Assembly (NCBI GenBank): GCA_022827405.1
Contig: JAJDTA010000145.1
Coordinates: 1-48,471 of the forward strand
DNA: 48,471 nt
Source: Acidimicrobiia bacterium
GTDB taxonomy: Bacteria > Actinomycetota > Acidimicrobiia > Acidimicrobiales > Bin134
Direction of reading: 5' to 3'
Part shown: in pieces, positions 5,671 through 12,926 of the stretch
Layout of the letters: each line of letters begins with the position of its first letter
Position numbering within the stretch: the stretch's first letter is position 1
Position numbers and translations under genes: made by a program
The notes under the pieces: model-generated
Databases searched by the model: none
Told to the model about the DNA's origin: nothing
What the model saw: only the letters and a program-made list of their open reading frames with translations

Positions 5671-6600
5671 ATGGCGACTGTGCCGCTGCACGAGGAGATC
5701 GAGCCGATCAAGGAGATGGTGCCGTTTGCCGTCATCAATGCGGAGAATCTGCCCGAGTTGCGGGCTGGGCGTCTAGGAGAGCTTCCCGAACTAAGCGATG
5801 TAGTCGAGCGCACCGACTATGTGGTGGATGAGACCAATGGGGTGGTGGTGCGGGTGCATCGCTCAGCGGGCGCAGAGGGCGATCTGCCATGCGTGTACTC
5901 GATTCACGGCGGGGGATACATCCTGGGCAGCTACGAGATGGACGACGCCAAGTTCGATCGGTGGTGTCCCGAATACGGGATTGTCGGGGTGTCGGTGGAG
6001 TACCGGTTGTCACCGGAGACGCCCTATCCAGGGCCGCTCGAGGACTGCTACGCCGGTTTGAAGTGGACCTACGACAACGCCGATGAGCTGGGGATCGACC
6101 GAGACAAGATCGGCATTACCGGGGTCAGCGCAGGGGGCGGCTTGTGCGCTGCGCTGGCGTTGCTGGCCCGGGATCGGGCCGAGGTGCCGCTGCAATTCCA
6201 ATTGCTGGACTGCCCGATGATTGATGACCGCCAGATCACCCCGTCAAGCCAACTCGACGAACTGCTGGTCTGGAGCAGGGAGTCGAACGCTTTCGGCTGG
6301 CAGAGCTACCTCGGCGACCTCTACGGATCGGACGATGTGCCCTACACCGCGGCCCCTTCCCGGGCTGAAGACCTATCCGGCCTCCCTGAGGCCTACGTCT
6401 GCATCGGCGGGGCCGACGGCTTCCGCGACGAAGACATCACCTACGCCATGCGCCTGTACGGCGCGGGCGTGCCCACCGAGCTCCACGTCTATCCCGGCGC
6501 CCCCCACGGCGTCGCCCTCTTCTCCCACCTCGAAGTGGCCCAGCGCTACTCCGCCGACCAAGAAGACTGGCTCCGCCGCCAGCTCGAGCGGCTCGGCTGA
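5671..6600 (+). CDS. alpha/beta hydrolase, HSL-type (HGGGY, GVSAGG) esterase, paralogue 1
   Basis: HGGGYILGS, GITGVSAGGG, PGAPHGV motifs; SD GGAAGGAG upstream. Confidence 0.9.
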   Translation: MATVPLHEEIEPIKEMVPFAVINAENLPELRAGRLGELPELSDVVERTDYVVDETNGVVVRVHRSAGAEGDLPCVYSIHGGGYILGSYEMDDAKFDRWCPEYGIVGVSVEYRLSPETPYPGPLEDCYAGLKWTYDNADELGIDRDKIGITGVSAGGGLCAALALLARDRAEVPLQFQLLDCPMIDDRQITPSSQLDELLVWSRESNAFGWQSYLGDLYGSDDVPYTAAPSRAEDLSGLPEAYVCIGGADGFRDEDITYAMRLYGAGVPTELHVYPGAPHGVALFSHLEVAQRYSADQEDWLRRQLERLG

Positions 6601-6626
6601 GGGCTTCTTCGCTTTTCAGCCCCGGA

Positions 6627-7565
6627 ATGGCGGGTACTGCGATGGTCCTACTGGACGAGGAGATCGAACAGCTCAAGCACACCGTGCCGACTCGTGAACT
6701 CAGTGCTGAGCTGCTGCCCGAGATTCGGGCCACTTTGCCGGTCCAGTTCCCCGAGTTGAGCGATGCGGTGGAGCGGTCGGATCATGTGGTGGATGAAGCC
6801 AATGGAGTGGTGGTGCGTGTACACCGCCCGCGGGGGATTGAGAGTGCGGTGCCGTGCGTGTATTCGATTCACGGCGGGGGCTACATCCGGGGCACCTACG
6901 ACATGGACGACGCCAGGTTCGACCACTGGTGTCCGACCTACGGCATCGTTGGGGTGTCGGTTGAGTACCGGCTGGCCCCGGAAACGTCCTACCCCGGTCC
7001 GCTGGAGGACTGCTACGCCGGTTTGACGTGGACATACGACAACGCCGCGGAGCTGGGCATTGACCCCGACAAGATCGGCATCACCGGAGTAAGTGCCGGA
7101 GGCGGCCTGTGCGCCGCACTGGCCTTGCTGGCCCGAGACCGAGGTGAAGTCCCCTTGCAGTTCCAGCTCTTGGACTGCCCCATGCTCGACGACCGCCAGA
7201 TCACTTCGTCCAGCCAACAGGAAGACCTGGTCATCTGGAATAAAGCCTCGAACGCCTTCGGCTGGCAGTGCTATCTAGGCGACCTCTACGGCTCAGAAGA
7301 CGTCCCCTACACCGCAGCCGCCGCCCGAGCCGAGGACCTGTCCGGCCTCCCCGAGGCCTACGTCTGCGTCGGCGGCGCCGACGGCTTCCGCGACGAGAAC
7401 ATCATCTACGCCATGCGTCTCTACGGCGCCGGCGTCCCCACCGAACTCCACGTCTACCCCGGCGCCCCCCACGGAGTAGGCCTCTTCCCCCAAACCGCCA
7501 TCGCCCACCGCTACGCCACCGACCGCGAACACTGGCTCCGGAGACAATTGGAGCGTCTTGGCTGA
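6627..7565 (+). CDS. alpha/beta hydrolase, HSL-type esterase, paralogue 2
   Basis: Same motifs and long shared blocks with 5671-6600. Confidence 0.9.
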   Translation: MAGTAMVLLDEEIEQLKHTVPTRELSAELLPEIRATLPVQFPELSDAVERSDHVVDEANGVVVRVHRPRGIESAVPCVYSIHGGGYIRGTYDMDDARFDHWCPTYGIVGVSVEYRLAPETSYPGPLEDCYAGLTWTYDNAAELGIDPDKIGITGVSAGGGLCAALALLARDRGEVPLQFQLLDCPMLDDRQITSSSQQEDLVIWNKASNAFGWQCYLGDLYGSEDVPYTAAAARAEDLSGLPEAYVCVGGADGFRDENIIYAMRLYGAGVPTELHVYPGAPHGVGLFPQTAIAHRYATDREHWLRRQLERLG

Positions 7566-9829: not shown

Positions 9830-10677
9830 TCGATTCCCAGCATTTCGTCGATCACCGCAGCCATGGCCGTGGGGTCTCGCTCGGTTTCGCGGGATTGGCC
9901 GCCGGCATCGAGGAAGCGCTGCATCAGCGGTACATGCTGGCCAGTGGCTGAGCAGGCCATCATGGCCTGGGTCTCGGTCAGCAACCCTGGTTCCACCGGC
10001 CCCAGCGCGGCGTCCACGGCTTGCTTGGCCTTGGCGATGGACAACCTCGGCGAGGCGGCGATGCGACGGGCCACCTGTGCGGTGTGGGCTCGGAGCTCAT
10101 CGGAGGGCAGCACCCGGTTCACGTAGCCGATAGCGGCAGCCTCCTCGGCGGTCACGTCGTTGCCCGACAAGACGATTTCCAGTGCCCGGCTGCGGCCCAC
10201 CAGGCGGGCCAGCCGCTGGGTGCCACTAGCCCCGGGGATGATGCCCATGGCCACCTCGGGCTGACCCAACACCGTGCGAGGCCCGGCAAAGCGCATGTCG
10301 AGGGACAGCAGGAACTCCGAGCCGCCGCCCCGAGCGACGCCGTCGATCATGCCGATGGTGGCCACCCCCATGGTGCGGCAGCGGTCGAACGTGGCCGCGG
10401 CGAAGTTGGGCTCGGAGGGCACCTCGGCGGGGGCCTCCATGGCCAGGATCTGCTCCACGTCGCCATGCATCAAGAAGAAATCGGGATCGGCGCTCTCGAA
10501 CACCAAGACGTGCACTTGCTCATCAGCCTCAACCGAGTCGAGCAGCCCCATCAGCCCGCCGATAAGGGGGCCGTCTACCAGCTGCTTGGGCGGATGATCG
10601 ATCACCACCCAGCCCACGCCATCGGCAACTCTCAAAGAGAACGGCCCAAAACTCTGCTCAGTTGATTGCTCACTCAT
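9826..10677 (-). CDS. enoyl-CoA hydratase/isomerase family protein
   Basis: Crotonase signature IDGVARGGGSEFLLSLDMRFAG; start trimmed to MSEQSTEQ, overlapping the upstream nitroreductase stop. Confidence 0.87.
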   Translation of the reverse strand: MSEQSTEQSFGPFSLRVADGVGWVVIDHPPKQLVDGPLIGGLMGLLDSVEADEQVHVLVFESADPDFFLMHGDVEQILAMEAPAEVPSEPNFAAATFDRCRTMGVATIGMIDGVARGGGSEFLLSLDMRFAGPRTVLGQPEVAMGIIPGASGTQRLARLVGRSRALEIVLSGNDVTAEEAAAIGYVNRVLPSDELRAHTAQVARRIAASPRLSIAKAKQAVDAALGPVEPGLLTETQAMMACSATGQHVPLMQRFLDAGGQSRETERDPTAMAAVIDEMLGID

Positions 10678-11287
10678 CGTGGTCCTCCCACTGGTTCCAA
10701 TACGCCACTTCTGACAATGGACGGCGGCGGACGGGGCCGAACGGCACCGCGGGCCAGCCCATCGGAATGCCGCACACGATATGGACGTCGTCGGGAATGC
10801 CCAGCACGGCCCGAACCTCATCGGCCCGGAAGGCATGCAGCGTGGTCAGCACCGTGCCCAACCCCAGGCTGCGGGCCGCCACTAGGAGGTTCTGCACCGC
10901 GGGGTACACCGAGTGGCTCACCCCCCGCTGGGTGGAGCCCACGATGATGAACACCGGCACGTCGCCCACCTCGCGGGCGAACTTGGCGGCCTTCTCGACG
11001 ATTCCGGCCTCCTGGCCCCGCAGCCACTCGGTGCCTGCCGCCGACGGGTTGTTGTACGACTCCTGCTGGGCGTCCAGATAAAGCTCGGCCAGACGGCGGC
11101 GTTTCTCAGGATCGGTGACCACCACGAAGCGGGCGAACTGCCCGTTGATGGCACTGGGCGCCCGGATAGCGGCGTCCAGCACTTGAGTGATCAGCTCGTC
11201 AGGCACCGGATCGGGCAGATAGCGCCGCACCGCCCGCTGGGTGTGCATGGCCTCGAACACGCCGATCTCGGCGTCTGGTTGATTCAT
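10670..11287 (-). CDS. nitroreductase family protein
   Basis: TQRAVRRYLPDPVPDELITQVLDAAIRAPSAINGQ; QNLLVAARSLGLGTVLTT. Confidence 0.9.
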   Translation of the reverse strand: MNQPDAEIGVFEAMHTQRAVRRYLPDPVPDELITQVLDAAIRAPSAINGQFARFVVVTDPEKRRRLAELYLDAQQESYNNPSAAGTEWLRGQEAGIVEKAAKFAREVGDVPVFIIVGSTQRGVSHSVYPAVQNLLVAARSLGLGTVLTTLHAFRADEVRAVLGIPDDVHIVCGIPMGWPAVPFGPVRRRPLSEVAYWNQWEDHDE

Positions 11288-11352
11288 GGGGTCCGACAGT
11301 AGCGGTCGCAGAATTGTGTGGGTTGTCGTCTGCCCGGCGATAGCCTGCTCCC

Positions 11353-11625
11353 ATGGCGCGAAAGCACCGCATCACCATCACCTATTGAGTTCCTTGAGAC
11401 TATTCCGAGCACGCCGTGAGCGCTGCCAAGGACCTCCTTCAGAACTACCAGCACATCATTGAGGACCTGACCCTGGTGACCGGCGCATCGGGCATCTTCG
11501 ACGTGGAAGTCGACGGTGAGATGCTCTTTTCCAAAGACGACTGCATGCGACATGCCAATGTCGGCGAGGTGCTGAAGCTCTTTGCCGAGCAATACGCCGT
11601 AGGAGTGCTGGTCTACGGCTCGTAG
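11353..11625 (+). CDS. Candidate double-selenocysteine SelW/Rdx (SelT/SelW/SelH) family selenoprotein with UxxU motif
   Basis: ATG at 11353 in frame with the 11416-11625 ORF across TGA 11386-11388 and TGA 11395-11397: MARKHRITITY-U-VP-U-DYSEHAVSAAKDLLQNYQHIIEDLTLVTGASGIFDVEVDGEMLFSKDD... The TGAs fall at the CxxC/CxxU redox positions of Rdx proteins; hairpin downstream; TANNNT box 6 nt upstream. Confidence 0.85.
11409..11426 (+). promoter_or_regulatory. Candidate bacterial SECIS hairpin (SelW-like gene)
   Basis: GCA-CGC / CGUGA loop / GCG-(C)-UGC; 6 bp with a 1-nt bulge; loop begins 17 nt after the second TGA. Confidence 0.55.
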
Positions 11626-11663: not shown

Positions 11664-12926
11664 GTGGACGCCGAGACAGCAGACGTCACAGTCGACATCG
11701 ATCATCAGACGGCGGAGTTCGTCGCCAACCGCCATAGCCGCTACCACCAGTTGCGGGAGAGCTGCCCGGTGATGTTCAACGAGCACTACGGCGGATTCTG
11801 GATGGTCACCGACTATGAGTCGGTGGCCCAGGTAGCCCGAGACAACGAGACGTTCGCCCACAAGTACGAACCCGATGCCCCCGACGGCATCTCTTATATG
11901 GGCATCTGCGGGGTACCCCGCCCGAGCTACATCCCCCGCCAGGGAGTGTCCGAGATCGACGGCCCCGAGCACGCCGACCTGCGGCGGGTGCTGAACCCGC
12001 TCATGACCATCAACGCGGTGGAGAGCAACCGCCCCCGGATGGAGGCGGTGTCTGCGTGGTTCATCGACGAGATCATCGAGTCGGGCGCGGCCGACTTGGT
12101 GCTCGACTACACCACGCCGGTGCCCGCCGTGCTCACGCTGGAGATGATGGGCATGGTCTCGTCCAACTGGCAGCACTACGCCGACTTCTTCCACGCCACC
12201 TCGTCGTACGAGCCCACCGACGAGCGGTACAAAAGCGCAATTGCCCACCAGCCGGACATGTGGGGGGAGCTGCGCGACTTCGCCGCATTCCGCCGGGGCA
12301 ATCCGGCCGACGACGTCACCACTGCGTTGGTGTCGTCGCCGCTGGATGGCCGGATGCTGAGCGACGACGAGATCACCGCCATCATGTGGAATCTGGTGGC
12401 GGGCGGCCTCGACACCACTACCTCGTTGGTGTCGTGGGGGCTGCACCACTTGGGCACCCACCCCGAGGACCGCGCCGGGCTCATCGAGGATCCGAGCCTG
12501 ATCCCGGCCGCGGTGGAGGAGTTCTTGCGCCACTACAGCCCCAGCGAGACCCTTACCCGCACCGCCACCCGCGACGTGGAACTGGGCGGCCGCCAGATCA
12601 AGCGGGGCGACATCGTATTCATCAGCTGGGTGACGGCCAACCACGATCCCGCCGTGTTCGATGCTCCCGACGAGGTGCGCATCGACCGCGAGGTGAACAA
12701 GCACTTGGCGTTCGGGCTGGGCGGTCACCGCTGCATCGGCTCGTCGATCGCCCGCATAGAGTCGGAGCTGATGCTGCGAGACGTCCTCGCCCGCATCGGC
12801 GACTACGAAATAGACCTCGAGGGATTCAAGCCCTATCCCGGCAACCTGCTGATGACCGGCGTGGTGTCGATGCCGGTCACGTTTACCCCTGGGGTCCGCA
12901 CCGGCGCAGCCGACCCCTTCGCTTAA
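11664..12926 (+). CDS. cytochrome P450
   Basis: FGLGGHRCIGSSIARIE heme-binding motif; GGLDTTTS I-helix. Confidence 0.95.
   Translation: MDAETADVTVDIDHQTAEFVANRHSRYHQLRESCPVMFNEHYGGFWMVTDYESVAQVARDNETFAHKYEPDAPDGISYMGICGVPRPSYIPRQGVSEIDGPEHADLRRVLNPLMTINAVESNRPRMEAVSAWFIDEIIESGAADLVLDYTTPVPAVLTLEMMGMVSSNWQHYADFFHATSSYEPTDERYKSAIAHQPDMWGELRDFAAFRRGNPADDVTTALVSSPLDGRMLSDDEITAIMWNLVAGGLDTTTSLVSWGLHHLGTHPEDRAGLIEDPSLIPAAVEEFLRHYSPSETLTRTATRDVELGGRQIKRGDIVFISWVTANHDPAVFDAPDEVRIDREVNKHLAFGLGGHRCIGSSIARIESELMLRDVLARIGDYEIDLEGFKPYPGNLLMTGVVSMPVTFTPGVRTGAADPFA

Follow-up and report, generated by a model that had tools for sequence, protein, structure and literature searches.

A stretch of 48,471 nucleotides from a contig assigned to an Acidimicrobiia bacterium, referred to here as the window, contains a short selW-like gene of the Rdx family in which two in-frame TGA codons, 9 nt apart, occupy the two chalcogen positions of the redox motif. 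Judged from the aligned sequences, both codons very probably specify selenocysteine (Sec), which would give the encoded protein a UVPU (UxxU) active site. The family is known, as is the type of motif; their combination is apparently undescribed in bacteria. The gene and its two TGA codons are located as follows.

11353–11625, forward strand: selW-like (Rdx) gene, 90 codons plus a TAG stop (11623–11625), with two in-frame TGA codons.
11386–11388, forward strand: UGA1, codon 12; Cys (TGC or TGT) in 66 distinct CVPU sequences; predicted Sec.
11395–11397, forward strand: UGA2, codon 15; Sec position of the CxxU motif; TGA in 74 of 74 aligned loci.

The initial annotation described a frame opening at ATG 11353 and interrupted solely by the TGAs at 11386 and 11395; these coordinates, and the stop at TAG 11623, are as described. 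Conceptual translation of the frame yields MARKHRITITYUVPUDYSEHA...VYGS.

With Cys placed at the TGA positions, the protein matches the Pfam Rdx family PF10262 (E = 9.3e-15; 55 bits against a cut-off of 22.6). Its score is also above the cut-off for TIGR02174 (CXXU_selWTH; 40.3 against 34.2) and is below that for the equivalog NF041051 (66 against 88). An AlphaFold model built from 75 homologues has a pLDDT of 95 and a pTM of 0.86 and supersedes a model built from 4 sequences (pLDDT 58). At E ≤ 0.001 there are 21 PDB matches, each a chain of a SelW-related or putative Se-binding bacterial protein. The best fold matches, the SelW-related Rdx structures 3dex, 2fa8, and 2oka, have TM ~0.8 and rmsd 1.3–1.5, although their sequence identity to the window protein is just 22–28%. 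The assignment to the Rdx/SelW group, originally made from the sequence alone, is thus upheld by two profiles above their cut-offs (PF10262 and TIGR02174) and by a SelW-type fold.

The motif follows strand 1, at the position of CxxC/CxxU in the family, and its residues are U-V-P-U if TGA is read as Sec, the first Cys being the one that has varied. It had also been claimed that the TGAs fall exactly on the chalcogen positions, and this agrees with the 66 distinct homologues in which the first site is Cys and the second is TGA. Because UGA2 aligns with TGA and UGA1 with Cys in the homologues, UGA2 is the ordinary Sec codon of the family and UGA1 replaces the partner Cys. We regard it as close to certain that the gene encodes a selenoprotein with Sec at UGA2.

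Both TGAs (UVPU) are present in 16 of 22 congeneric genomes; four others have a single TGA (CVPU), and the gene is absent from two. Sequencing or assembly error was considered as a source of the double TGA and ruled out, since the same pair recurs in 16 genomes, two of which (G006 and G014) are single-contig chromosomes. The gene, or a member of its family, was found in 85 of 298 genomes of the order, 153 of 395 of the class, and 56 of 397 of the phylum (Actinomycetota); among the matches listed for these genomes (for the phylum, all but the weakest), no UxxU form was seen outside the genus, where there is at most one TGA. A search for viral relatives of the gene found none. From GTDB genomes, a scan recovered 80 named loci, comprising 14 with UVPU and 66 with CVPU, CVSU, or CAPU. 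The UVPU records are mostly labeled Acidimicrobiia or Acidimicrobiales, with one labeled as marine group Sva0996. Several seem, judged by bin names, to come from sponge metagenomes, and the genus with UVPU is one of mostly sponge-associated marine actinobacteria.

In a tree built without the two motif columns, all 14 distinct UVPU sequences group as a single clade (99/82), which has the CVPU congeners L070 and L074 as its sister and is nested within CVPU. On the evidence of these sequences, UVPU appears to have arisen by a single Cys-to-Sec codon change and to have been kept since. TGA is present at codon 12 in every UVPU sequence, and there are no reversions to TGC or TGT, one base change away, among the 14 distinct sequences; these are close relatives, and features that they share are not independent evidence. 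Two homologous loci, L092 and L098, are labeled Anaerolineae and Acidobacteria; the tree places L098 with Acidimicrobiia, and its label or binning is probably wrong. In a side group of homologues (L081, L084, L087, L088, and L102), CVSU replaces CVPU.

The Sec machinery that the initial annotation proposed to look for was recovered in part: the genome to which the window belongs (3.77 Mb in 237 contigs, 95.7% complete and 5.3% contaminated) has profile matches to selA, selB, and selD, all over cut-off, whereas the gene for tRNA-Sec (selC) was not found in this fragmented assembly (G000). Adjacent selA and selB genes lie on two contigs, at L050 (G000:C163) and L051 (G000:C226), the copies being 87% identical in DNA; judged from these two copies, the bin is probably a mixture of two related species or strains. 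Among the congeners, selA is found in 21 of 22 and tRNA-Sec scores above cut-off in 17 of 22. The selD gene is located as follows.

L052 (G000:C40), 5922–6866, reverse strand: selD, with an in-frame TGA at the usual Sec/Cys site (GAGUAGK) and a strong downstream hairpin.

From its sequence, the SelD of this genome is probably itself a selenoprotein. Contig C226 stops shortly after the gene found next to tRNA-Sec in congeners, and the final 130 bases of the contig differ. Unrelated sequence at L051:17585–17725 includes a short inverted piece resembling the 3' half of tRNA-Sec (TTCGATTCCCGTCCA), and an insertion at, or a rearrangement of, the tRNA-Sec locus is possible there. We take the missing tRNA-Sec to reflect an assembly gap or local rearrangement and not absence.

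The presence of two in-frame TGAs in one short gene might also be explained by reassignment of TGA in this organism (e.g., to Trp or Cys), with no selenium involved. Such a reassignment is exceedingly improbable, given that the TGAs are confined to the two chalcogen columns and, in selD, to the usual Sec site, that selA and selB are present in the genome, and that several homologues in the order stop with TGA where the window gene stops with TAG.

The position of the translation start bears directly on whether the TGAs are read at all, and a predicted promoter element lies just upstream of the ATG.

11341–11346, forward strand: predicted −10 element TAGCCT (TANNNT), 6 nt 5' of the ATG.

TANNNT occurs within one base of the 11341 position in 54 of 77 homologous genes, and in every UVPU locus listed among them. 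A distance of about 6 nt between TANNNT and ATG is the spacing of leaderless actinobacterial mRNAs. The mRNA thus looks leaderless, with its predicted 5' end at or next to ATG 11353; the conservation of TANNNT at the spacing expected for a leaderless transcript pins the start to this ATG and argues that translation begins upstream of both TGAs. The TANNNT conservation within 11341–11352 also points to leaderless selenoprotein mRNAs of this gene class-wide. The ratio dN/dS is ~0.24 for the frame as a whole, 0.35 for the part preceding UGA1, and 0.22 downstream, from codon 22 on; purifying selection on both the 5' and the 3' side of UGA1 implies that both sides are translated.

An open reading frame starting at GTG 11416 had been reported to lose the active site, and this GTG is indeed codon 22, past the active site and within the predicted SECIS apical loop (11415–11419). 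Were translation to start there or elsewhere past the TGAs, or were the gene a decaying pseudogene, the TGAs would be plain stops; the GTG is in frame, and automatic ORF callers would start after the TGAs. We consider this very improbable. The protein is conserved 5' of and between the TGAs in all homologues, and these begin upstream of both TGAs, the opposite of what the initial annotation had named as grounds for rejecting its reading. GTG 11416 forms part of the loop of a conserved hairpin and lies past strand 1 as well as the active site, TANNNT precedes the ATG in most homologues, and dN/dS is below 1 upstream. A downstream start at GTG 11416 was ruled out by the upstream conservation, the upstream dN/dS, and the TANNNT before the ATG. 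Standard annotation of the gene, then, strips off its active site.

Two RNA elements, one of them speculative, were identified around the TGAs.

11404–11432, forward strand: SECIS-like hairpin with loop CGTGA (11415–11419); fits a published model, shows covariation, and has no synonymous change at codons 18–25 of UVPU genes.
11388–11446, forward strand: possible extended stem, AGUUC (11388–11392) with GAACU (11442–11446), its base at UGA1; UVPU only.

The sequence directly 3' of UGA2 is GACUAUUCCGAGCACGCCGUGAGCGCUGCCAAGGAC. The upper stem of the hairpin pairs 11409–11414 with 11420–11426 (one bulge, at 11423), and a short lower stem pairs 11404–11406 with 11430–11432. The loop (CGUGA) starts 17 nt past UGA2 and 26 nt past UGA1. 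The bacterial SECIS model specifies a loop of 3–9 nt with G in the first two places, a stem of 4–16 bp, a spacing of 16–37 nt from the UGA, and an MFE ≤ −7.5 (PMC13188914). With 9 bp and an MFE of −8.7 kcal/mol, the hairpin satisfies this model for both UGAs; the strict SECIS model is passed by 61 of 90 loci.

The hairpin is short, and its energy is not better than that of shuffled sequence (z ~−0.9) and is uninformative, so the case for a SECIS rests on covariation, synonymous constraint, and the spacing rule. Rfam gave no useful match around the gene, and RF00031 was silent here and in all control genomes, and hence uninformative. Among 66 distinct aligned sequences, five of the six pairs have changed on both sides (e.g., C-G to U-A and G-C to A-U), and the covariation score of the hairpin is above that of all 500 shuffles. 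Codons 18–25 have zero codon diversity, with no synonymous change, in UVPU genes, compared with a diversity of 0.20 further downstream; in CVPU genes they have half the usual diversity.

The hairpin is also present in the CVPU congeners, and so a SECIS seems to have been in place already when Sec was gained at the first position. It is likely that one hairpin serves both UGAs. All five pairs of the extended stem are present in 13 of the 14 distinct UVPU sequences and in none of the 66 CVPU sequences, one pair depending on UGA1 itself; the z-scores of the extended fold are weak (−0.8 to −1.5). The UVPU sequences being close kin, we present the outer stem at UGA1 as a speculative lead.

A rival reading is that UGA2 alone is Sec, with UGA1 read as a near-cognate Cys or Trp or mostly causing termination, so that little full-length protein and no true UxxU would result. 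UGA1 is further from the loop than UGA2 (26 versus 17 nt), and, the hairpin being shared with CxxU congeners, nothing in it is clearly new for UGA1 beyond the weak extended stem. We nevertheless judge this unlikely: 26 nt is within the published range of 16–37 nt (PMC13188914), UGA1 is unreverted in every one of the 14 distinct UVPU sequences and is flanked on either side by codons under purifying selection, and bacterial UxxU is already accepted in Prx-like and metal-binding protein families (PMC13188914).

The UVPU proteins also carry a Cys that sets them apart from their CVPU relatives.

11542–11544, forward strand: codon for Cys64, a residue of the loop that follows the final beta strand.

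Cys is found at position 64, 65, or 66 in all 14 distinct UVPU proteins (in the contexts SKDDCMRH, SKDDCCRH, or SKYATDCH) and in 0 of 66 CVPU proteins, which have no Cys elsewhere either, save for a handful close to the likely start or 5' of it. Two UVPU subclades differ in its position (Cys64 versus Cys66), a pattern that suggests two gains or a shift. Thioredoxin-like folds have this loop at the edge that bears the active site, and from this position Cys64–66 could act together with the two Sec residues. The appearance of a loop Cys in step with the second Sec suggests a change in chemistry as well.

Returning to Sec insertion at both UGAs, we propose that ribosomes would start at ATG 11353 on a leaderless mRNA, and that SelB and Sec-tRNA would insert Sec at UGA1 and then at UGA2, steered by the single downstream hairpin, to produce UVPU with Sec12 and Sec15. 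The selenol pair would constitute a fast, oxidation-resistant redox couple (selenol/diselenide), with Cys64 (or Cys at 65 or 66) in the neighboring loop possibly acting as a third, resolving residue. We give diselenide chemistry involving a third Cys an even chance of being correct. Somewhat less probable is the full combination, in which one SECIS decodes two UGAs 9 nt apart on a leaderless mRNA, helped by the outer stem at UGA1, and the diselenide site then repeatedly gains a third redox residue (Cys64/Cys66); this we offer tentatively.

The closest known relative is the bacterial SELENOW-like selenoprotein (PF10262, CxxU), with which the window protein shares its domain, fold, second-position Sec, and a SECIS-like hairpin just downstream; Acidimicrobiia homologues outside the genus are of this form (CVPU). 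The window protein differs in that a second Sec replaces the first Cys (UVPU) and in the extra Cys at 64–66. Reviews from 2022 and 2026 give prokaryotic SELENOW-like proteins as CxxU only (PMC9312934, PMC13188914), the bacterial protein having one Sec in the latter (PMC13188914), and we found no bacterial UxxU SELENOW in the open-access literature. The initial annotation considered UxxU unusual for Rdx proteins, and this stands for bacteria, but UxxU SELENOW has already been reported in amphioxus and Ostreococcus lucimarinus (PMC7539508, PMC3473315). Those proteins are of the same family and have the same double-Sec motif as the window protein. In the eukaryotic UxxU SELENOW, however, the 3' UTR carries the SECIS, so that neither UGA competes with the other for a set distance, and a separate origin from bacterial UVPU is likely.

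UxxU is also known in the bacterial Prx-like, metal-binding, and FmdB families (PMC13188914), including Prx-like sequences in marine bacteria (PMC2398784), and a diselenide bond has been reported for SelL (Shchedrina 2007, as cited in PMC2398784). Selenoprotein L and the bacterial Prx-like UxxU proteins resemble the window protein in having two Sec in UxxU, but they belong to a peroxiredoxin-like family, whereas the window protein is an Rdx protein. The features that bacterial UVPU adds are the SECIS, probably shared by both UGAs, and the linked Cys. One genus thus offers a natural progression from CxxU to UxxU in which the RNA hairpin is the same before and after the change; this makes testable both the reach of a bacterial SECIS to more than one UGA and the gain from a second selenium in a one-Sec redox motif.

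The genes flanking selW in the window are the following.

10670–11287, reverse strand: nitroreductase-family gene, divergent neighbor (PF00881, E = 9e-28).
11664–12926, forward strand: cytochrome P450 gene, downstream neighbor (PF00067, E = 1.5e-30).

A thiolase gene follows the cytochrome P450 gene. This gene order is found in all 14 named UVPU loci (L056–L069) and differs in the CVPU homologues, and it is possible that the UVPU protein shares a role with the nitroreductase.
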